A DNA stretch of 64,000 nt. Origin: Dokdonia pacifica (lineage in GTDB: Bacteria > Bacteroidota > Bacteroidia > Flavobacteriales > Flavobacteriaceae). A model generated the notes under the pieces. That model ran no database searches and had not been told where the DNA came from. It saw only the letters and a list, made by a program, of their open reading frames with translations. Position 1 is the first letter of the stretch. Each line of letters starts with the position of its first letter. Shown piece after piece: positions 1 to 12,560 of this stretch. The stretch covers positions 186,001-250,000 of the forward strand of contig NZ_FZNY01000003.1 in the NCBI RefSeq assembly GCF_900188275.1, written 5' to 3'. A program made the position numbers and the translations under genes.

Positions 1-419
1 TAGGTTCTTTGCCAATGTTCTTTTTTGCATAGCGTTTATGATGTACCTTATACCATTTACTAATTGAATTTACCGTAATAAAACGTCCTTTTTTCCTTTC
101 TATTTCAGAATAAAAAGAAGCCGTAGCTAAGGCTATGCCTTATTTCTCTTCCTCATATAAAGAAAAAAATAATCTTTTTCTTTTCTAGTAAATTCAATTA
201 ACAACTGGTATGGATTGCTCGCTTTCCACAATACACACAGGTCCAGTTATCGCGTTTTAAAACGACATAGCGTTTGCGTTTCCAGGCGTCAGATTTTAGA
301 TATACGTTTCTGTAATAATCGCGTCGCTTTTTACGTTTTCTATTGAAGAGCCATTTGTCAAACCACCATTTTCCTATCACGAGGCATAATAGAAGGAAGA
401 GTATGGTGATTTCTTTCAT
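1..419 (-). pseudogene. membrane-anchored HNH nuclease gene, interrupted
   Basis: The intact 5' part (198-419) encodes 73 residues: an N-terminal membrane segment (about residues 5-20), a basic linker, then the start of an HNH domain with RDNWTCVYCGKRA. It then meets a stop codon. About 150 bp further on the same strand, positions 1-49 encode KVHHKRYAKKNIGKEP, the missing His-His half of the same domain. Joining codon ATC (213-215) to AAG (47-49) gives CGKRAIKVHHKRY, which reads as a normal HNH core. The gap is filled by the inverted-repeat element at 50-211. The gene runs off the left edge, so its true end is unknown. That it is non-functional is inferred from the break. Confidence 0.7.
50..211. 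mobile_element. MITE-like element with 24-bp inverted ends
   Basis: The ends at 50-73 and 188-211 are inverted repeats matching at 21 of 24 positions, including 13 perfect bases at 61-73 and 188-200 (TAATTGAATTTAC and its complement). The interior is AT-rich, has a small hairpin (AAGGC-TAT-GCCTT), and carries no ORF of note. It sits exactly between the two halves of an HNH domain. A TA lies just inside the perfect 13-mers, but a clear target duplication is not evident. The size and structure fit a non-autonomous element; no matching transposase is seen here. Confidence 0.6.
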
Positions 420-433
420 GGTGTGTTATTTAA

Positions 434-463
434 GAGCACTCGTCACAGACGAGCGATAGCCCT
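434..463 (-). repeat. GCACTCGTC hairpin repeat, copy 1
   Basis: This is a short stem-loop with stem GCACTCGTC/GACGAGCG and loop ACA, followed by ATAGCCC. It lies 34 bp downstream of the GmrSD-like gene. The same sequence recurs at 23573, 24033 and 25170, with a decayed copy at 22498, always just past the 3' end of a minus-strand accessory gene. It could act as a terminator; its origin is unknown. Confidence 0.75.
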
Positions 464-496
464 TATGAATTATACACATTGTTGTGCTTTCGTGCT

Positions 497-2338
497 TTAT
501 TCAACAATTTCCTCCTCTTCCACTTCTTCAATATCTTGGGGCATCTCAAAATGTTTATCAATTCCCCATCTTTCAATAATCCAAGAAACAAGTGATTTTC
601 TGCGCTCCTTGCAACTATCTACAGTCCAATCGTCAAATTCTGAAATTTTCCTTTCTTGTCTTATATCTGAATTAGCATAACAATGTCCTGCTCCTGGGTT
701 TCCTTTTTTTCTATCAAAATCAAAATTCAAATAATGAGAATTGTCTTTTGTTAAGACAATATTTGAAATATCATGGAGATATAAACGAATATCTGATTCT
801 GACCATTTCTTTTTCCATTGTGAATTTTCATCTGGATTTTGAGGAAGAATATGTTCAAATGTGGCATCAGTCAAATCATTCCACGTTAATTTTGGTTTTG
901 CTCCTTTTCCCTGAGATTTTAATAACCATAATTCTAGTTCGTACAAGGTATATCTTAATAATCTACGCCAATGATACCAATCATAAAATTCCTCTTTCAG
1001 TTCTTTTCTAAAACTATTCTCGACTGAATACCAGTTAATTGTATCTAAAATCCAATTCGTTACTGATTCTACACTATGCTTTTTTGTAAAAACATCATCT
1101 GCCCATCGGTAAAACTTTGATAGTCCAGCATTGCTTCGTTTTCCTGACCACAGGAAAACTCTGTAAGAAAACAATTCTAAAGCTTTGAGTAATGCAATGT
1201 AACTCTCGGGGGTTATTTCGCCTGCTACGACACTTTTTCTAACCGCAATCATTAATGGAAGGTAGTTAGCGACATTACCAGCATTTTTAATTTTTGTTAA
1301 CCAAGTAAATTCATCTTCTATTTTAGAATCTTTAGATGGCTTTATTATCTCAGAATAATGCATTGATATTTCCGCTAAACCAGAGATTATTATTGAAATG
1401 AAATTCTGAGTATCCTCTTTAGTTTTCTTAGAAAAATCCCTTAATGGAATAACATCATTAGATTTAAATCCTGTATAACCGTCCCAATGTTTTGGAGTGT
1501 AGGAATGGTACAATGTCCATGCTATTCTCAAACACTGATTTTCACTACCATTACAATTGGCTATGTTGATATAAATTTCTTTCCACGATTTATTAATAGT
1601 ACCTGTTAAATCTTCTTTTTCGTTTGGTAAACTGACATTCCTATAAACCCAGTACATCAAATAGTTTTTTAACAATTCTAATGATGAAAGGCCTTTGCCT
1701 CTTGAATTCATAAGTTCGAAAGTCATACCAATTTCACTTTCAACTTCGATAGGATAGAATGAGAAATTAAGTTTCCTAATTATTGCATCAAATAAGTCTT
1801 TTAGATATTCAATCCCTTCTGCTTCACGTTTTTCTAATTGTTCTCCAATATGTAACTTCAGGTAATTATACCCCTTCGAAAGCCTTTTTTGGTGAACTGT
1901 TGATGCATTAACATTTGTACTGCCCTTAGATATTAAGTCAAAAAAGAAGTCAGCAGTATCATTATTTAGCCTTAGCTTACTTTTTGTACCTGACAAAAGA
2001 TAAATTGAGATTTCAGCTTTAAAATCTTCCTGACCCTTATTTATCAATTCGTTTAGTATGATTGCTAAATATAAACTACAAGTTGTCAGCCTCTGTTGCC
2101 CATCTACAATATCAACGACCTCAAGTTTTTTAGTGCCATAATTTTCAGTAGGCTTGTCTAGTGGTTGATGAATTACAATTGTTCCTGTATAATGACTAAT
2201 AATTTTGTCGTCTATCAATGCGTCAATGTCTTGTACAAAATCTTTCCATTGTTTTTCTTCCCAAGCGTATCCACGCTGATAATCGGGAATCTGAAATATT
2301 TTTCCTTCAAGTAGGTTTGATAGGGTTTTCTTTTCCAT
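497..2338 (-). CDS. GmrSD-type (DUF262/DUF1524) restriction endonuclease
   Basis: This 613-residue protein has the two halves of single-chain GmrSD enzymes. The N-terminal DUF262 half shows IPDYQRGYAW (17-26) and the nucleotide-binding motif DGQQRLTT (79-86). The C-terminal DUF1524 half has the HNH-like FEHILPQNP (494-502), where His496 is the likely catalytic residue. The tail is acidic. Family members cut DNA with modified cytosines (type IV restriction) and protect against phages such as T4. No methylase or BREX gene is adjacent, which suits a stand-alone type IV enzyme. A neighbouring HNH gene and flanking repeats mark the locus as accessory. Family assignment is firm; substrate is inferred. 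Confidence 0.88.
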   Translation of the reverse strand: MEKKTLSNLLEGKIFQIPDYQRGYAWEEKQWKDFVQDIDALIDDKIISHYTGTIVIHQPLDKPTENYGTKKLEVVDIVDGQQRLTTCSLYLAIILNELINKGQEDFKAEISIYLLSGTKSKLRLNNDTADFFFDLISKGSTNVNASTVHQKRLSKGYNYLKLHIGEQLEKREAEGIEYLKDLFDAIIRKLNFSFYPIEVESEIGMTFELMNSRGKGLSSLELLKNYLMYWVYRNVSLPNEKEDLTGTINKSWKEIYINIANCNGSENQCLRIAWTLYHSYTPKHWDGYTGFKSNDVIPLRDFSKKTKEDTQNFISIIISGLAEISMHYSEIIKPSKDSKIEDEFTWLTKIKNAGNVANYLPLMIAVRKSVVAGEITPESYIALLKALELFSYRVFLWSGKRSNAGLSKFYRWADDVFTKKHSVESVTNWILDTINWYSVENSFRKELKEEFYDWYHWRRLLRYTLYELELWLLKSQGKGAKPKLTWNDLTDATFEHILPQNPDENSQWKKKWSESDIRLYLHDISNIVLTKDNSHYLNFDFDRKKGNPGAGHCYANSDIRQERKISEFDDWTVDSCKERRKSLVSWIIERWGIDKHFEMPQDIEEVEEEEIVE

Positions 2339-2562
2339 AATATCTTAAGTTTTTTCAAAGCTCTCTTTTCATAACGCCAAAATGTGTCGCAAGTCTCTTT
2401 TTGCAAGAAACACAACTACTTTATATCATACGTGTATGGTATATTATAAATAATATCCTTCTTATCAAATGTAATCGAATTTTAAGTCATTACATTTATA
2501 ATTTGCTGTTAATTAGGTGTTTTGGTGTGATGAATAATGGTTTAATTATGCTTATAGATGAC

Positions 2563-2633
2563 TATAAACTTTTGTAATCATTACGAAATCTACCATATTC
2601 TAATAACACTTTATTACGGCTTCCCATAACAAT
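2563..2633. repeat. 70-bp repeat upstream of GmrSD gene (pair of 25977-26043)
   Basis: It aligns with 25977-26043: TTTGTAAT, GAAA-CTACC, AACACTTT and CGGCTTCCC are shared in the same order and spacing. Both copies lie a few hundred bases upstream of a minus-strand accessory gene that has the GCACTCGTC hairpin at its other end. The 334-bp gap in which this copy lies (2339-2672) also holds a near-palindrome at 2424-2446. No gene is seen in it. Confidence 0.55.
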
Positions 2634-2672
2634 AATCTATAATAAAAGATTGGAGATTGAAGACTTTAAGAA

Positions 2673-2975
2673 TTAGTCTTCATTTAAATATGCTTCCAAG
2701 CATTTAGAACAAACGGGTTCAAGAGCATCAAAGAGAGCTTCAAATTTCTTTTGATCGGTTTGAAAATCAATTTTCATGTCTTTAATGCCAAGCGTATTTA
2801 CTAGAGAAATATCTATGATATAGGCTCCATTAAATAGTTCTTTTTTATCTACAACTTGGACTTTTAACACTTCGGTGTCAACACATACTTCTTGATTATT
2901 AGCTTTGTTTGCATGATATTTTGATATAAATGCTGTGACATTTCCTCCATGATATTCACATAGTATATATCCCAT
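2673..2975 (-). CDS. hypothetical 100-residue protein
   Basis: This is a small soluble protein with no signal peptide and no family I recognise. It opens MGYILCEYHGG and ends with a Cys pair, CSKC (about residues 89-92), which together with Cys6 and His9 could bind a metal. It stands alone between the GmrSD-like gene and an epimerase-like gene, with AT-rich repeats on both sides. Codon use looks native. The reading frame is clean and uncontested on both strands, which is the main support for calling it a gene. Confidence 0.6.
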   Translation of the reverse strand: MGYILCEYHGGNVTAFISKYHANKANNQEVCVDTEVLKVQVVDKKELFNGAYIIDISLVNTLGIKDMKIDFQTDQKKFEALFDALEPVCSKCLEAYLNED

Positions 2976-3011
2976 TTGTTATGTTATTAGTATTACCTAC
3001 AATGTATTCAT

Positions 3012-3120
3012 TTTCGCGAAAGCGGGAAAAAAGAAATGATTGGAGATTGTGGATTGTGGATTTTTGATTTAAAAAAGCCTTATGTCCTACGTCCTATAGC
3101 AAAGCGGTCTTATGTCATTA
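3012..3120. repeat. intergenic repeats: half palindrome, GATTGGAGATTG, TTATGTCCTACGTC
   Basis: Three repeat types lie together: a partial CGCTTTCGCGAAAGCG copy (3012-3026), a low-complexity GATTGGAGATTGTGGATTG tract (about 3036-3060; a shorter one is at 2648), and a TTATGTCCTACGTC...AAGCGGTCTTATGTC unit (3080-3118). The last recurs inverted near 26110-26200. A short ORF across this stretch has repeat-like composition and I do not regard it as a gene. Confidence 0.5.
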
Positions 3121-3186
3121 ATTACGAGTCAGCATTTCGATACAATTTCAGCTATGATAAAATCACTCAATGTCCATGTACGAGCA

Positions 3187-4041
3187 TCACAACTTCTGAC
3201 TTCCAGCGACTACCTCTTCATTGGTAATGCTTAAATGCTTGGGGAGTTTATTGTCTCTAGGGAGTACGGCTAAATAGCGATCAAAATTACTGGTGTATAC
3301 ATTTTTATACAACGGTTTTCTGCTAATGTCAAACATGGTAATCAGGTCGTGTATAAACTCCTTATGATGGATCAAATCAGAACTTCCTAGATGAAAAATC
3401 CCATGTAATTTCCGATTGATGATATAATGTACCTGTTGACTAAACTTGGAGTCGGTGGTGGTATTGATAATCAAATGCGGAAATACTTCAATAGGCTCTC
3501 CAAGTAGGAGGTTGTTTTTGAGTTCGCGTACGCGTGAGGACTGTACTCCAAAGACCATCGGCAATCTGACAATAGCATATTGCTTTTCAGGTAAGTTACG
3601 CATGAGTAAAGTCTCTATACGTATTTTAAGCTTTCCGTAAATACTTTCAGATAAGGTCTTGTCATGCTCATAACTAGGGTAGTGGGAGAAGGCATCAAAT
3701 ACATTGGCACTTGATAAAAAGATGACTCTACAGCCACTCATAGCAGCATATTCTGTGATGAGTTCATGTGCTTCTAACTGCGCAGGAAACGGACCTCGTA
3801 ACGCAGATATAATGACAGAGGGTCGTACTTTTTTGAGTAATTCAAACACATCATCAGCGATGAGGTCGTATCTGAAAAAGTGTTTATTGTCACTATATAT
3901 TTTTCCAGAATGATAGGTGCCATAGGTATCATAATATCTATAGAGCTCTTTATAGAGTGCAGCACCTAGAAAGCCAGAGGCACCTAGAATTATGACTTTA
4001 TCTTTTGATTTTTTATAAGCGATAACAAGGGGGATTTCAAT
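3187..4041 (-). CDS. NAD-dependent epimerase/dehydratase, RmlD-like, no standard start codon
   Basis: The Rossmann fold reads KVIILGASGFLGAALYKEL and the protein continues as an SDR-type sugar reductase, with SSANVFD as the substrate-loop region, then YGKLKIRIE (YxxxK) and VRLPMVFG. The first in-frame ATG (3849) would remove the whole NAD-binding motif, so the real start must lie upstream. Between the in-frame stop at 4048-4050 and the motif there is no ATG, GTG or TTG. ATT at 4039-4041 is the best candidate I see; the start is therefore uncertain. It follows gcvT after a hairpin. Function as a dTDP-4-dehydrorhamnose-reductase-like enzyme is inferred from the family only. Confidence 0.72.
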   Translation of the reverse strand: MEIPLVIAYKKSKDKVIILGASGFLGAALYKELYRYYDTYGTYHSGKIYSDNKHFFRYDLIADDVFELLKKVRPSVIISALRGPFPAQLEAHELITEYAAMSGCRVIFLSSANVFDAFSHYPSYEHDKTLSESIYGKLKIRIETLLMRNLPEKQYAIVRLPMVFGVQSSRVRELKNNLLLGEPIEVFPHLIINTTTDSKFSQQVHYIINRKLHGIFHLGSSDLIHHKEFIHDLITMFDISRKPLYKNVYTSNFDRYLAVLPRDNKLPKHLSITNEEVVAGSQKL

Positions 4042-4085
4042 AAGAAGTTAGCACATGATTAAAAATAATCGTTGGCTAACTTCTT
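4042..4085 (-). terminator. terminator after gcvT
   Basis: An 11-bp perfect stem, AAGAAGTTAGC (4042-4052) with GCTAACTTCTT (4075-4085), encloses an AT-rich loop and lies just past the gcvT stop. The following epimerase-like gene begins right at its far edge. Confidence 0.6.
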
Positions 4086-4108
4086 AGTGTATGATAAAAA
4101 ATGTTTAC

Positions 4109-5194
4109 TTATCCTTTTTTATAGAAAGGTGGTCTTACAACGGTTGCAGGGACTGCTTTCTTGCGTATCTGTATGTTAATTTTTGAATCTGACTTACTAT
4201 AGGCAGTGGCTACATAGCCTAAACCAATTCCTTTTTCTACTGAAGGACCCATGGTACCTGACGTTACATGACCTATTTTATTGCCTTCATCATCTACGAT
4301 ATCATAACCTTGACGAGGGATTCCGCGTTCATCCAATACAAAACCAACTAATTTTTTAGAAACACCTGCTTCTTTTTGTGCTTTGAGTGCTTCACTATTG
4401 ATAAAGTCTTTCGTGAATTTTGTCACCCATCCTAAACCAGCCTCTAGTGGTGATGTGGTATCATCTATATCATTACCATATAAACAATATCCCATTTCTA
4501 AACGTAAGGTATCACGTGCAGCAAGTCCTATAGGTTTGATACCCCAATCGGCACCAGCTTCTAATACTTTATTCCAGATCATCTCTGCATCTTTGTTATG
4601 GCAGTATATTTCAAAACCACCACTTCCGGTGTATCCTGTTGCACTAATAATTACATGCTCTGCGCCAGCAAATGGTCCTACTTCAAACGTATAAAACTTG
4701 ATAGCAGAAAGATCTGTATCTGTAAGCGATTGCATAGCCTCGGCAGCTTTAGGTCCTTGAATAGCCAAAAGCGAGAAATCTTCAGAGATATTTCTAAGAT
4801 TTACATCATAGGTATTATGTTTATTAAACCAAGCCCAATCTTTATCAATATTAGATGCATTTACAACCGCTAGGTATTCATTTTCTTTGATGCGATATAC
4901 AATCAAATCATCTACGATACCACCCTCTTCGTTAGGTAAGCAATTGTATTGAGCACCACCCACACCAATTTTTGATACATCATTTGAACAAATACGTTGT
5001 AAAAAATCTAACGCTTTATCTCCATTGATAAGAAATTCTCCCATATGAGATACATCAAAAACGCCTACGCCATTGCGCACTGTCTCGTGCTCAGCGTTTA
5101 CGCCCTCGTAGGATACAGGCATATTATATCCAGCAAACGGAACCATTTTAGCTCCTAATGCTTCGTGTATTGCGGTTAATGCAGTGTTTTTCAT
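4109..5194 (-). CDS. gcvT: aminomethyltransferase (glycine cleavage T protein)
   Basis: GcvT moves the methylene group of the aminomethyl-lipoyl H protein onto tetrahydrofolate and releases ammonia. The 361-residue protein shows VPFAGYNMPVSYEG, the folate-site FDVSHMGE, IVDDLIVYR and LEAGLGWVTKFTKDFIN, all typical of the family over full length. I chose ATG 5192-5194 (MKNTALT); an in-frame ATG seven codons earlier would lie in the promoter, since TACATTTG sits at 5215-5222. The gcvH and gcvP genes are not nearby, which is common in flavobacteria. Confidence 0.96.
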   Translation of the reverse strand: MKNTALTAIHEALGAKMVPFAGYNMPVSYEGVNAEHETVRNGVGVFDVSHMGEFLINGDKALDFLQRICSNDVSKIGVGGAQYNCLPNEEGGIVDDLIVYRIKENEYLAVVNASNIDKDWAWFNKHNTYDVNLRNISEDFSLLAIQGPKAAEAMQSLTDTDLSAIKFYTFEVGPFAGAEHVIISATGYTGSGGFEIYCHNKDAEMIWNKVLEAGADWGIKPIGLAARDTLRLEMGYCLYGNDIDDTTSPLEAGLGWVTKFTKDFINSEALKAQKEAGVSKKLVGFVLDERGIPRQGYDIVDDEGNKIGHVTSGTMGPSVEKGIGLGYVATAYSKSDSKINIQIRKKAVPATVVRPPFYKKG

Positions 5195-5214
5195 TTGTGT
5201 GTTTTTTTGCAACA

Positions 5215-5222
5215 CAAATGTA
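5215..5222 (-). promoter_or_regulatory. promoter -7 box for gcvT
   Basis: On the minus strand the bases read TACATTTG, matching the Bacteroidetes TAnnTTTG box. It lies 20 bp before the chosen gcvT start and would give a short leader. No clear -33 TTG was seen. Confidence 0.5.
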
Positions 5223-5270
5223 CATAAAATGAAGTGCTAAAAATAGCTTTATAAAGCCCAAATTATGGAT

Positions 5271-5681
5271 TTAATTTAGGTTGTTTTTACGATCTTGTTT
5301 TGTAGGGAAATATAAGTTAGAACTACTATAGGAAGAGCCAAAGTTCTGAGCGCCTGCATATACTTGTTGAATAGCATCTTCTACTTGGCGTTCTGTAAGT
5401 TCTTTTAATGGATGCATAAAGACAGACCAAAGGATGCCGTCAGAAATCGCATATTTGATATCTAAAGCTGTATGAAAATTGGCTTCCAAACATTTATTTA
5501 TTTCATCAGGCGTTAGTTTATCAGTTTCTATGATAGGAGCCATAAACCGCATTCTATTATGAAGCTCATCAGTTAGACAAATGAGTTGTGTGTCTCCCAA
5601 TATAAATTGCCAATGTCCATGATTGCCTTTTACATTGTCTATAAGTGTATGGAATATGGTATCTAATTGCTTGTTATTCAT
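5271..5681 (-). CDS. hypothetical protein, YbjN/secretion-chaperone-like fold
   Basis: This 136-residue soluble protein has a helix, then alternating strands (WQFILGDTQLICLTDE, RMRFMAPII) and helices (TPDEINKCLEANFHTALDIKYAI). That order resembles the YbjN/type III chaperone-like fold, but I call it on pattern only. There is no signal peptide. Its start overlaps the stop of the upstream esterase gene by one base (TAATG), so the two are probably translated from one message. Function unknown. Confidence 0.7.
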   Translation of the reverse strand: MNNKQLDTIFHTLIDNVKGNHGHWQFILGDTQLICLTDELHNRMRFMAPIIETDKLTPDEINKCLEANFHTALDIKYAISDGILWSVFMHPLKELTERQVEDAIQQVYAGAQNFGSSYSSSNLYFPTKQDRKNNLN

Positions 5682-7750: not shown

Positions 7751-8176
7751 TTATAGATCATCTATAGAGACTGGAGTTTGTTTTTCTTTTTCAGTAAGAA
7801 TACGTTTTATAAACTGATGAACTCTTTTTTCAGTGGCTTCAATCTTTATACAATACGTATCTCTGTATATACTATATTCTTGTGCATCTCCTTTATAGAT
7901 TGTAAGTTTCCAATACGGAATTACAAGGGCATATGATTCTAATAAGGCTCTAAAACCAATAATAATACCATTAGGGCGTAACTCTATGTTGCATTTGTTG
8001 CGGTATTTATCTAGTGCTAGTAAGTTTTGTATTTCGATACTAGAAGAAGTAATTATAAGATGACCGAGACCAATCCCACCTTGTTTGATCCGCTCAAAAA
8101 AAGAAAAAGGTTTTCCTACCTCATTGTCTATTTTTTTACGAATCTCAGGATTATTATAGGAGACATTTAAAAGCAT
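7751..8176 (-). CDS. hypothetical protein, 141 residues
   Basis: I took ATG 8174-8176 (MLLNVSYNNPEIRKK) as the start; a longer frame to 8320 would run deep into the FAD-oxidoreductase gene, and its extra residues look like an antisense shadow. The protein is soluble, with strands LGHLIITSSSIEIQNLL, IELRPNGIIIGFRALLESYALVIPYWKLTIYKG and YCIKIEA and a C-terminal helix, a pattern that suggests a PH-like barrel, but this is inference. It lies 37 bp after the oxidoreductase gene and may share its transcript. Confidence 0.6.
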   Translation of the reverse strand: MLLNVSYNNPEIRKKIDNEVGKPFSFFERIKQGGIGLGHLIITSSSIEIQNLLALDKYRNKCNIELRPNGIIIGFRALLESYALVIPYWKLTIYKGDAQEYSIYRDTYCIKIEATEKRVHQFIKRILTEKEKQTPVSIDDL

Positions 8177-8213: not shown

Positions 8214-9335
8214 TTATATAGATGGATGTCTTCTTTTCCAAAAAGGATGATCACTCCAACGCATCTCTGCTTTGTAAAAAGTGTTTTTATGATAACAATA
8301 TTGTTCCCAAATAGCTTCAATTTGTTGCGTGTACATTTTTTGAAATTGTGCTTCTATGATACTGTCGGGGTGATTTACAATATTAGACATAACTAATAGC
8401 TCTTTTAACTGCATGGCATTGGCCATGGCATTAAACATACCTTGAGAAGACAGCGGATCAAAACTTATGGCTGCATCTCCTATAGCTGCCCATTGTTGAC
8501 CTGTTACTTTTTCTAATTGTGTTGAGTTTGCTGCTGTAACTCCGTGAAAAGTAATTGCTGCTTTATTCTTTTCTAGAATAGCTGCTATTTGCCTATTACT
8601 TTTAGAAAGTTCTAGAAATGAATTTAGATCTTTAAAGGTACTGCGGTCTACTAGGTCTGAATCTGTTTGAAAAGCAATGACACGTTTATGATGAGGAACA
8701 ACAGCACTATACCACCATCCATTTTCTGAAGCAGTAATGGTACTCATTTTATTTTCTTGAGTGGCAGGAAGTGTTACCCAACAAGCTATCAATTTATCAT
8801 GATGTATACGCTGTACACCCTGACTTCTTGCAAAATGAGATTGTCGTCCTGTAGCATCGATGATAAATTTGGCTTGTATATGTTGTTCTTTATGTATATC
8901 AGAAGTGATCACAACATTCCAAGTGGTATCATCTAACGAACTATTTTGCAATTTAGCTGGCCAGATACATTGTACGCCTCTTTCTACTGCCGATTTTCTT
9001 AGGAATTTTTCAAAACCTTTTCTGTCTATACTTTTACTTAACCCATCAGGATTACGTAAATGATCAACAATATGTACTTGCTCACTACCCCAATACGATT
9101 GCATTCCTAAGTTTTGAATATAGAGTGAGTTTTGATATCGCTGTAGTGGTTCAAGTAATTGAAGCTCTTTAAGGATGCGTTGTGCTGCCGGTGCTAATGA
9201 TTCTCCGATACGCTCTTTAGGTTCTTCTAACTTATCAATAAGCGTAACGGTATGTGTATCTATTAATGAGATGGCGGCAATGCAACCTGCAATACCGCCA
9301 CCTACAATAAGGATGTCTGTTTCTATTTTTGCCAA
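8214..9335 (-). CDS. LodB-like FAD-dependent oxidoreductase
   Basis: This 373-residue flavoprotein has the dinucleotide motif DILIVGGGIAG near the N-terminus, GESLAPAAQRIL (as in flavin halogenases and LodB), IIDATGRQS and the second FAD motif AIGDAAISFDPLSSQGM. It starts 3 bp after the stop of the LodA-like gene, on the same strand. In known LodA/LodB and GoxA/GoxB pairs the B protein makes the cysteine-tryptophylquinone cofactor in the A protein, so that maturation role is the best reading. On sequence alone it could be any halogenase-like monooxygenase; the neighbour decides. Confidence 0.85.
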   Translation of the reverse strand: MAKIETDILIVGGGIAGCIAAISLIDTHTVTLIDKLEEPKERIGESLAPAAQRILKELQLLEPLQRYQNSLYIQNLGMQSYWGSEQVHIVDHLRNPDGLSKSIDRKGFEKFLRKSAVERGVQCIWPAKLQNSSLDDTTWNVVITSDIHKEQHIQAKFIIDATGRQSHFARSQGVQRIHHDKLIACWVTLPATQENKMSTITASENGWWYSAVVPHHKRVIAFQTDSDLVDRSTFKDLNSFLELSKSNRQIAAILEKNKAAITFHGVTAANSTQLEKVTGQQWAAIGDAAISFDPLSSQGMFNAMANAMQLKELLVMSNIVNHPDSIIEAQFQKMYTQQIEAIWEQYCYHKNTFYKAEMRWSDHPFWKRRHPSI

Positions 9336-9338
9336 AGA

Positions 9339-12300
9339 CTAGTGTTCTTTTGGTATGTAACGCTCAAAACGCACCATTTTTTCAGGAACACCCACAGATT
9401 TTCTAGGTTGTTTCTGATGCTGTGTCGTTTTCACTTGATCAGCTTTATGTGTTTTTGAAGCGAGTAGATCTAATAATCGTTGCACACTAGGTGTGATTTT
9501 ATAATCTTCTACAAGTTCATGTTCAATGAGTGTGAGTAATTGATCTTTTGCACCTTCCATCAAGAATTGCTCATTTAATAGTTTTTTATGTGACAGATGC
9601 TTAACAGTCGTATCTAATAGATCTTTTTCTTTTCTACCCATACGTTTTTTACTACTTATGACTTTTTTCAAGTCATTCATCGTATCAGATAGTAGTTTTG
9701 CATGTTGTTCTTCACTAGGGATAATACCTACCTGCATTTCTGGCGGGAAATTTGGATCATCAGTAACTCCAGGTCGTGGTTGAACGACAGCTAGTTTATC
9801 AAAATACTTAATCATTTTATTGATCTGATTTGTTTGCGTAGGCGCTTCTCCATCCAGAGGTAAGTCATCTAGCCAGAAATAGCGATATGCAAAAGCTTCT
9901 CTACGTGTTTCTTCAGATAGTTTAGGATCAATAGCCTCTTTATAACGCTCTTCACTTAAGATATTATTAGGCACTCTAGCCGGCCAGAAAGTTGGTAAAT
10001 AAGGATCGTAAGAAGTGGTATACCCATCTCTACAGCTGGCAGTATCTGTTTGCCAAGGAATTGCCATCCAACGTGTAATACCTCCTGGTGGTTGTCCTCC
10101 TAATAATGGGCCAGCCGACATGGTAATCACATCGCCATTCATTGTAGAGCCATAATAACTTGTATCTGTTTTTGGTGTCTTTGGCGCATGCTTAAGTCTA
10201 AATGGCGCTGAGTACATACCAGAAGTTCGCATAGGCCATGTCATTTCACATCCTGGATGGAAAGCATCGGCTAGACAGAAATCCATGGCAGCTTTGGTCA
10301 ACATATCAGGTTGTTCTGAAACAGGTAATTGATCAATATCCGTAACGACAGCAGCCTGTACATCATCAAAATCGGCATCAAAATCCCCTTCTACCCATTG
10401 ATCTAAAAATGACAATTGTAATTTGGATAGTGTTGAATGTTGACGAACAGATCCTTGTGATGGAATCGAAATTGCATCCCCGTACATCCAAGGCCATAAT
10501 TGTGGTGCTTCGGCACCAGACACATCATAACGACGGAAATTATTTGAAATCGTTCGGCGCATCTCATAATTGGCAGATGAAGGATCACCTAATTTTCGTA
10601 CCCATTCTTCAGAGGTATAATTAAATTGGCCTCCCCATCCAAAGGCACCGGCAAACCCTGCATTTACCCATTGTAAATTGGTCATACGTTCAAAAATGGG
10701 TAAAATATCTTTCATAAACGAAGGTCTCGCAGGACGCTCAAGCATGCCAGCCTGTACTGCAATATCTCGCATCAAATCCCACATTGTACGCACCGATTTT
10801 TGCATAGGCGCATAATCTGGTGGCGCACAAACTACCCATGCCGGATCTACGTTTAATGCGACTCCTTTATAGGTTACGTCTGCTGTAATAGGCCCATCAG
10901 AAGTATCATCATACCAACCTTCATTATTTGCAAATGTTACAGCAATATCTCCATTAAGATTTTCAGATTTCCCGTGTCCTCCTAACATAATAAGACGCCC
11001 TTTTTTATCGGTATGCATCTCTCCTAAATAGACCTTTTTAGATTGGAATTCCCCTTCAAAAGTATGCCCTTTGGTAATATTAGGCTTTGATATACTTTGT
11101 TTCCCTCCATCTATATGTAATGTGCTTCTATCTTTTACATCGATATTACGGAGTAATGATGGCGGTATATCTGGATCACTTGCGTCGGGAATATCCAAAG
11201 CAATTTGAAATTGATACCAAGAAGCTTTTTGATTTGCCAAATGAGCATGCCAAGTAATCTTAGTGTCTTTATCTGGAGTTAATTCTTTAATCGCTTTTCC
11301 AGCCGCATTAAATCCATAAATTCTAAATTGTGCTGCTTGACGTTTTAAAGCACCCGTTTTATCTCTATACGCATATACATCTTCCTTAGCTTCGGGTACA
11401 TCTACTAGCGGACCTAAAAAGTATTCATCTTTACTATTACCTACACGTGTAATTCCAATAGGAGGATAGATACCCGCTCTTACAATACAATCATCGTCCT
11501 CATCGGTATTTCCCTGAAAAAAGGGACAACGCTGTTTGGGTTCCTGTAATTGTTGTCCATTGGCTTGGTGTCGTGTTTCAGCACTAGCAGCGTATACTGT
11601 CTTACGTACTTCTGCAATTGAGCCTAAAGGTCTATGCGCAGCAAGTGTGCGCCAGATATTAAATGATAAATTAGAACCAAATTCCGCCTGACCAATAGCA
11701 GTAACATCTTGTTGCGGTATATGTAATTCTGCAATACAGATATACGGACTCTCTTTGGTGCTCCATACTACTTGCGCATCATCCAGCGGCATGGTTTTGT
11801 CATTTGTACGCACCTGAATTTCAAATCTAAATTTCGCATCTCCATTACGAAGGCGCTTTTCTAAATCCAGTTTTAAATAATTTGTATCATCAAATGGCGC
11901 TCCTTTTGGTGTACTTTCTTCTGGAACTAAACGATATTTTACAATCTGTGATTTCCCTAATTCAAAAGGAAGTATGGCCCAATAACTAGCGCTTAAACAA
12001 CTCCCTTCTTCTTTTGCCATTGCCGCTAAAATTCTTCCTACTTCGGGATGTTTATTTATATAGGTGTCATAATCTTGATCAATCACACCCGCAGTGGTAA
12101 ATGCACACATTTGTTGTGCATCTCTAGCGAAGAAACGATCTATATTTTGAAAGATAAAATCGGCAGTATCTCCTTCACCAAATAAATTTCTCCCTTTTAC
12201 TCCAAAGAGTTTTAAACCAACTCCTAAAGTAGAGTGTAAATCGGCTGAAGTAGGAGAGGTGTCACTAGAAAATCGCATAGCGCACTCATAAGAGTCGCCT

Positions 12301-12560
12301 GCAAAGATGCCCACTTTATATTTTTTAGGAATATCTTTTTTAATTACAAAATTACCGTAGGCAATACCGTGTTGTTTTCTAAATACAGCACGTTCTGCTG
12401 GTTTTTGTCCATTTTCAATTCGGGTTTTTTGCCCCATTTCTACAAACATCTCTTTAAGACGTTGTGTCACTATTTTTGTAGCACCAGTACTATCCCAGCA
12501 TTTTACATTGTTTGCTGTAGGTTTGTCTACATTTTTTTGGTTGGAGGAATCTTTACTCAT
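9339..12560 (-). CDS. catalase-like domain fused to LodA-like CTQ amino acid oxidase
   Basis: Residues about 25-340 resemble catalase-like heme proteins of the y4iL/SrpA group: distal-His region RKQHGIAYGNF (His64) and a possible proximal Tyr in TVYAASAETR (Tyr323). From about residue 360 it is LodA-like: ITRVGNSKDEYFLGP, WHAHLANQKASWYQFQIALDIP, LGGHGKS, WVVCAPPDYAP, WPWMYGDA, TRWMAIPWQTDTASC and PTFWPARVPN. The CTQ-forming pair appears intact: Cys771 (HPGCEMTWP) and Trp836 (PWQTDT) are 65 apart, as are Cys516 and Trp581 of LodA. LodA proteins are near 700 residues, so this 1073-residue form is a true fusion. LodA-type enzymes oxidise lysine or glycine and release H2O2. No signal peptide is visible. 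The LodB-like partner follows. Confidence 0.88.
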   Translation of the reverse strand: MSKDSSNQKNVDKPTANNVKCWDSTGATKIVTQRLKEMFVEMGQKTRIENGQKPAERAVFRKQHGIAYGNFVIKKDIPKKYKVGIFAGDSYECAMRFSSDTSPTSADLHSTLGVGLKLFGVKGRNLFGEGDTADFIFQNIDRFFARDAQQMCAFTTAGVIDQDYDTYINKHPEVGRILAAMAKEEGSCLSASYWAILPFELGKSQIVKYRLVPEESTPKGAPFDDTNYLKLDLEKRLRNGDAKFRFEIQVRTNDKTMPLDDAQVVWSTKESPYICIAELHIPQQDVTAIGQAEFGSNLSFNIWRTLAAHRPLGSIAEVRKTVYAASAETRHQANGQQLQEPKQRCPFFQGNTDEDDDCIVRAGIYPPIGITRVGNSKDEYFLGPLVDVPEAKEDVYAYRDKTGALKRQAAQFRIYGFNAAGKAIKELTPDKDTKITWHAHLANQKASWYQFQIALDIPDASDPDIPPSLLRNIDVKDRSTLHIDGGKQSISKPNITKGHTFEGEFQSKKVYLGEMHTDKKGRLIMLGGHGKSENLNGDIAVTFANNEGWYDDTSDGPITADVTYKGVALNVDPAWVVCAPPDYAPMQKSVRTMWDLMRDIAVQAGMLERPARPSFMKDILPIFERMTNLQWVNAGFAGAFGWGGQFNYTSEEWVRKLGDPSSANYEMRRTISNNFRRYDVSGAEAPQLWPWMYGDAISIPSQGSVRQHSTLSKLQLSFLDQWVEGDFDADFDDVQAAVVTDIDQLPVSEQPDMLTKAAMDFCLADAFHPGCEMTWPMRTSGMYSAPFRLKHAPKTPKTDTSYYGSTMNGDVITMSAGPLLGGQPPGGITRWMAIPWQTDTASCRDGYTTSYDPYLPTFWPARVPNNILSEERYKEAIDPKLSEETRREAFAYRYFWLDDLPLDGEAPTQTNQINKMIKYFDKLAVVQPRPGVTDDPNFPPEMQVGIIPSEEQHAKLLSDTMNDLKKVISSKKRMGRKEKDLLDTTVKHLSHKKLLNEQFLMEGAKDQLLTLIEHELVEDYKITPSVQRLLDLLASKTHKADQVKTTQHQKQPRKSVGVPEKMVRFERYIPKEH

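Follow-up and report, generated by a model that had tools for sequence, protein, structure and literature searches.

A catalase-fold domain fused to a LodA-type quinone oxidase, with phenylalanine at the distal-histidine position

The window analysed here, a stretch of 64,000 nucleotides from Dokdonia pacifica (assembly GCF_900188275.1, contig NZ_FZNY01000003.1, positions 186,001 to 250,000 of the forward strand), contains on its minus strand (9339-12560) a single open reading frame (ORF) of 1073 aa, without interruption, in which an N-terminal catalase-fold domain precedes a LodA-like oxidase part (approximately residues 360-940) with the residues of a cysteine tryptophylquinone (CTQ) cofactor. 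At the position where catalases carry their distal His, the domain has a Phe, a feature that was found in every fused relative in which the position was covered. The main features of the locus are:

9339-12560, minus strand: fusion ORF, 1073 aa; catalase-fold domain, LodA-like CTQ oxidase and helical tail
11526-12488, minus strand: catalase-fold domain, approximately residues 25-345
10827-11468, minus strand: LodA_N (PF17990), residues 365-578, E-value 5.5e-76
9984-10457, minus strand: LodA_C (PF18417), residues 702-859, E-value 9.5e-40
9342-9740, minus strand: C-terminal tail, residues 941-1073, mostly helical in a low-confidence model
8214-9335, minus strand: LodB-like flavin adenine dinucleotide (FAD) protein, 373 aa, TTG start; NF038171 E-value 6.5e-74, below cut-off

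This anatomy can be regarded with considerable confidence as correct. A first-pass annotation had already read the ORF as one protein joining catalase-like and LodA-like parts, and the uninterrupted frame bears this out, as do LodA_N and LodA_C, which scored 255.7 and 136.2 bits (Pfam cut-offs 26.3 and 25, respectively). The LodB-like ORF that it placed 3 bp downstream is likewise there, beginning 3 bp past the stop codon of the fusion. The PF00199-like domain that it expected was recovered in part: the Catalase profile does match, but below its cut-off of 25 (17.8 bits with the whole protein, 22.2 with the domain alone), and the N-terminal domain was assigned to the catalase fold by fold prediction. 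A Pfam scan of the tail (residues 941-1073) gave no match. Among the matches listed, the named relative nearest to the LodA part was L050 (96% identity), from an uncultured Dokdonia.

In catalases and in coral allene oxide synthase (cAOS), the distal His lies three residues after the heme-binding Arg; the heme-site residues of cAOS are R64, H67, N137 and Y353 (PMC5617202), and those of KatE include His128, Asn201 and Tyr415 (PMC8699984). The heme-binding Arg of the window protein is Arg57, and its distal-His position is therefore occupied by Phe60. The register could be fixed because the stand-alone relatives, which read R-x-x-H-x-K-x-H-G, often have both the distal His and a His at window position 64. 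The codons concerned are:

12381-12383, minus strand: Phe60, catalase distal-His position; Phe in 69/69 covering fused rows
12369-12371, minus strand: His64, second His of the R-x-x-H-x-K-x-H motif of stand-alone relatives
12144-12146, minus strand: Asn139, distal Asn of catalases, kept; Asn in 70/70 fused rows
11604-11606, minus strand: Arg319, proximal Arg; Arg in 70/70 fused rows
11592-11594, minus strand: Tyr323, proposed proximal heme ligand; Tyr in 70/70 fused rows and 7/7 true catalases

Fused proteins were gathered with a query (A1) spanning the LodA part only, which made their selection independent of the distal residue. The residue table comprised 135 distinct rows, excluding window duplicates and contained sequences; two incomplete ORFs, L102 (830 aa) and L175 (392 aa), were counted as fused, and 'no LodA' denotes that none lay within the fetched stretch (median of the longer flank, 1470 bases). 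Two rows, L009 among them, did not cover the distal column (one fused, one with no LodA). When LodA was in the same ORF (70 rows), the column held Phe in 69, the remaining row not covering it, and the four rows with LodA in the same locus but in another ORF had Phe as well. The 54 rows with no LodA had His in 47, Asn in 4 and Gln in 2 (one not covering), and the true catalases had His in 7/7. Smaller alignments concurred, with Phe in 68/68 fused rows versus His in 12/12 stand-alone rows, and then 68/68 versus 38/42; the sole stand-alone Phe in the latter was L133. The Phe60 codon was TTT in 41 rows and TTC in 28. Two more stand-alone sets without the distal His read R-x-x-N (L136, L141, L185, L186) and R-x-x-Q (L137, L192). 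A literature search on catalases lacking the distal His found nothing relevant, and no mention of the His-to-Phe change was found in the portions consulted of PMC4417212 or of a 2015 review, nor in a wider search restricted to papers outside closed access.

The remainder of the heme site is kept. In addition to the residues listed above, Arg330 and the distal Ser98 were invariant (70/70 fused rows), as were Ser99, Gln138 and Trp194, which vary elsewhere. Tyr323 was present in 50/54 rows with no LodA in the larger alignment and 43/43 in the smaller one. Of the two likely heme residues proposed in the first-pass annotation, Tyr323 stands as the proposed proximal ligand; His64 is not the distal His. 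The possibility that His64 is a shifted distal His was rejected, since 36/54 rows with no LodA also have His at 64, mostly beside a His at 60.

Among 80 related loci with a LodA core, the catalase-like domain was present in 64 and absent in 16; these loci were the best 80 of 523 related stretches and are biased to close relatives. Two quick trees, with support from the Shimodaira-Hasegawa-like approximate likelihood ratio test (SH-aLRT) only, were computed from 100 LodA cores (excluding duplicate loci, L174, L175, L188 and cores <420 residues) and from 129 domains (excluding L001, L003, L023, L177, L102, L074, L009, L175, L188 and stretches <200 residues). In the domain tree the Phe-type rows formed one clade of 69 (SH-aLRT 98; L133, which has Phe, is labelled His-type there). 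From these sequences, the His-to-Phe change is best seen as a single event, retained down to ∼40% protein identity. The core tree, in which several long branches meet (L173, L176, L006, L024), required four changes between the fused and unfused states; one gain and three losses of the domain would fit, and multiple gains would also be possible. The ratio of nonsynonymous to synonymous substitution rates (dN/dS) of the domain was 0.041, 0.040, 0.049 and 0.065 in four comparisons, values that are rough only because dS was 0.89-1.88; on this rough estimate, selection appears to maintain the domain.

Within the sample, the Phe-type domain was never found away from LodA, and in one locus it occurs beside LodA in trans. 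This locus, L173 (G923, 66-5608), falls among the fused proteins in the core tree and encodes a LodA-like protein (796 aa; 66-2456), a LodB-like protein (367 aa; 2429-3532) and a Phe-type protein (3701-5608); the last is L133, 635 aa from its ATG, in an ORF separate from that of LodA. The C-terminal half of L133 (∼290 aa) had no significant Pfam match, and the LodA of L173 has an additional N-terminal stretch of ∼155 aa. The other Phe-type rows outside the LodA ORF (L074, L174, L188) are apparently frame-broken fusions and were counted as found. Including these, five fusion copies appear frame-broken or fragmented (the other two being L102 and L175), two of them on Sinorhizobium plasmids.

The CTQ of LodA is formed by C516 and W581 (PMC4417212), which lie in PWQADFFNC and YYSYWW of the LodA chain (+20 in 2ymw numbering). 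Transfer of these residues to the window protein via L008, a LodA-like protein that matches LodA at 840 bits, gave the following codons:

10032-10034, minus strand: Cys843, CTQ cysteine, by alignment with LodA
9984-9986, minus strand: Trp859, CTQ tryptophan, by alignment with LodA

Both columns held these residues in 18/18 aligned rows, and the aligned unfused rows retain both. The two are 16 residues apart in the window protein versus 65 in LodA, which carries an insertion between them. Cys771 and Trp836, which the first-pass annotation had taken for the CTQ pair, were rejected: the former column has Cys in only 7/18 rows and Ile in L008, and Trp836 corresponds to a Trp that precedes LodA Cys516 by seven residues. 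On this alignment, their spacing of 65 is a coincidence. The protein scored far below the cut-offs of the equivalog models for LodA (lysine epsilon-oxidase, NF038172; 172.9 versus 600) and GoxA (glycine oxidase, NF038173; 410.6 versus 750), so its substrate is probably another, as judged from these scores. In Marinomonas, a mutant lacking lod and gox showed neither the lysine nor the glycine activity any more, though its Group III gene was kept (PMC4417212).

The LodB-like ORF best matched the LodB, GoxB and QhpG maturase models, all three below cut-off. An ORF of this kind lay directly downstream of the LodA core in 76/80 related loci; of the other four, two stop at a contig end and one (L102) has an interrupted LodA ORF. 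Beyond lodB, neighbouring genes were not conserved across these loci. A small ORF after lodB in the window (7751-8176) had no Pfam match and, among the 80 loci, occurred only in the genome of the window itself and in three Dokdonia loci. Another LodA/GoxA-like protein (712 aa; G000:C11:12146-14050; L014), not fused, is encoded in the same genome, in a locus that also holds a LodB-like ORF.

The catalase-fold domain is very probably not an ordinary catalase: catalase activity of the usual kind would be unlikely with no general acid-base His in place. On the same residue patterns, the N-terminal part is probably a LodA-dedicated domain that binds heme and is non-catalatic; heme binding itself is plausible given the ligand residues kept. 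The locus is best read as a two-gene unit of a Group III LodA-type oxidase and a LodB-type maturase. The LodB-like protein would make the CTQ, the oxidase part would convert an amine or amino acid and O2 with release of H2O2, and the N-terminal domain would hold heme through Tyr323. This heme might react with peroxide in a substrate-dependent manner, like a peroxygenase or a hydroperoxide-rearranging enzyme. The model for such a scheme is the coral allene oxide synthase-lipoxygenase (AOS-LOX), whose catalase-fold domain transforms the hydroperoxide of its partner domain, and by this analogy a peroxide-using chemistry is suggested tentatively. P450-type allene oxide synthases work with Asn and Phe close to the heme and are not known to use an acid-base His. 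Tyr-ligated catalases have a very low heme potential, which speaks against an electron-relay role. It is conceivable, with the same reserve, that the LodA-fused domains, together with the one encoded separately, represent a distinct LodA-dedicated branch of the catalase fold. In this view Phe took the place of the distal His on a single occasion and was then kept, and the resulting heme pocket would not dismutate H2O2; instead it would catalyse some other reaction that depends on peroxide, on or near the product of the quinone oxidase. That tentative proposal includes a quinone enzyme and a heme enzyme acting one after the other within a single chain.

Several observations weigh against this interpretation. 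His64 was present in 68/69 covering fused rows and could stand in for the lost distal His. In the predicted structure, residues 54-60 have a predicted local distance difference test score (pLDDT) <50, so the side-chain placement of Phe60 and His64 at the heme is not visible; the full-length AlphaFold model (pLDDT 57.5, predicted template modelling score 0.42) is poor in the LodA part, and domain contacts are not readable from it. Since the Phe-type rows form one clade, the 69 count as one evolutionary event. In addition, L061, L063 and L083 (from Kordia, Aquimarina and Formosa) lie inside the fused clade of the core tree without the domain, no catalase-like sequence being seen upstream of L061, and a search of 10 genomes with unfused genes, which lacked a positive control, did not find the domain. 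These relatives and genomes indicate that the domain is dispensable.

The best-surviving alternative is a structural or regulatory domain, serving oxidase assembly, localisation or substrate gating, with a heme that is structural or sensing, or with no heme. The loss of the acid-base residue, the dispensability of the domain in some relatives and the invariance of Ser99, Gln138 and Trp194, which lie outside the classical set, would suit such a role, but a mere scaffold would not need Tyr323, Arg319, Arg330, Asn139 and Ser98 in every fused row; this explanation is considered rather unlikely. It is less probable still that the domain is a peroxide scavenger, in which His64, or the heme alone, provides a slow catalase or peroxidase activity that shields the oxidase from the H2O2 it produces. 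The fold and the Tyr, Arg, Asn and Ser residues are kept, as is His64, the partner should make H2O2, and no PF00199 catalase match was found in the window's own genome at E ≤ 0.001. Against this, the distal column is Phe throughout the fused rows, His at both 60 and 64 is common in stand-alone relatives (so that His64 is no shifted distal His), the same genome has a separate KatG-type ORF of 806 aa, and true catalases (E < 1e-170) occurred in 4/10 fusion-bearing genomes examined. Relatives without the domain keep the oxidase, and an obligatory removal of peroxide is weakened by the existence of these unfused proteins. The suggestion of the first-pass annotation that the domain could destroy the H2O2 product would thus, for an ordinary catalase, conflict with Phe60, the KatG-type gene and the domain-less relatives; its alternative, that the domain could use this product, may still apply. 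Finally, an aid to cofactor maturation, with the heme domain assisting in hydroxylation or cross-linking of the CTQ tryptophan in the way that di-heme MauG acts for tryptophan tryptophylquinone (TTQ) (PMC7876137), is very improbable. In its favour, MauG is a heme enzyme, and the first Trp hydroxylation in LodA and GoxA is considered autocatalytic and copper dependent (PMC7876137). Against it, the domain is missing from 16/80 related loci that have a LodA core, both CTQ residues are retained in the aligned unfused rows, and the existence of such relatives weakens a role in maturation.

The His-to-Phe change, invariant in the covering fused rows, speaks against built-in peroxide removal and sharpens the question of what function such a pocket has and why it occurs beside LodA only, the role of the Group III catalase-like domain having been left open since 2015. 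L173, with its separate genes, and L061, L063 and L083, which lack the domain, are natural test material.

The first-pass annotation had thought the fusion little described, yet Campillo-Brocal et al. 2015 tabulate (Table 3) 21 LodA-like proteins that carry a pfam00199/cd08152 (y4iL) domain at the N-terminus, all of Group III and 963-1072 aa in size, among them those of Flavobacterium soli (1072 aa) and Tenacibaculum ovolyticum (1061 aa); Group III proteins are described there as having no known substrate or function (PMC4417212). The orthologues from these two species were recovered here (L056 and L078), and the window protein lies beside both in the core tree. It shares the architecture, size range and LodB-like neighbour of these fusions, with no essential difference, and on sequence grounds is a further member of the kind listed in 2015. 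Other LodA-like proteins carry pfam14518 (iron redox, 5 proteins) or vWA (2 proteins) at the same N-terminal site (PMC4417212), unrelated add-on domains in one place. With LodA (3weu/2ymw) and GoxA (6byw and others) the window protein shares the CTQ Cys and Trp, LodA_N, LodA_C and a LodB/GoxB-type partner, but it has the extra N-terminal domain and a Cys-Trp spacing of 16, not 65.

Compared with catalases of the KatE type (PF00199), the distal Asn and the proximal Arg-x-x-x-Tyr were found and the distal His was not. Stand-alone proteins of the y4iL/SrpA type share the catalase fold, the Arg...Tyr proximal motif and mostly the second His at 64, but have the distal His in 47/53 covering rows where the window protein has Phe60. 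A gene of pNGR234a annotated as catalase, which we take to be y4iL, matches the window domain with 29% identity. The MAP catalase-related protein (3e4w/3e4y) is stand-alone with His at the distal column, whereas the window protein is fused and has Phe. One further fusion, L183 (880-3837 of G1053), joins a His-type catalase-like domain (PF00199, E-value 3.1e-7) to an animal-haem-peroxidase domain (PF03098, E-value 6.4e-69) in one frame and, as a catalase fold with an oxygenase, recalls coral AOS-LOX. In the coral AOS-LOX and hydroperoxide lyase-lipoxygenase (HPL-LOX) fusions (1u5u, 3dy5), cAOS keeps H67 and the partner is a lipoxygenase, while the window protein has Phe60 and a LodA partner; should its domain indeed use peroxide, the coral lipoxygenase fusions would have a bacterial parallel built on an amine oxidase.
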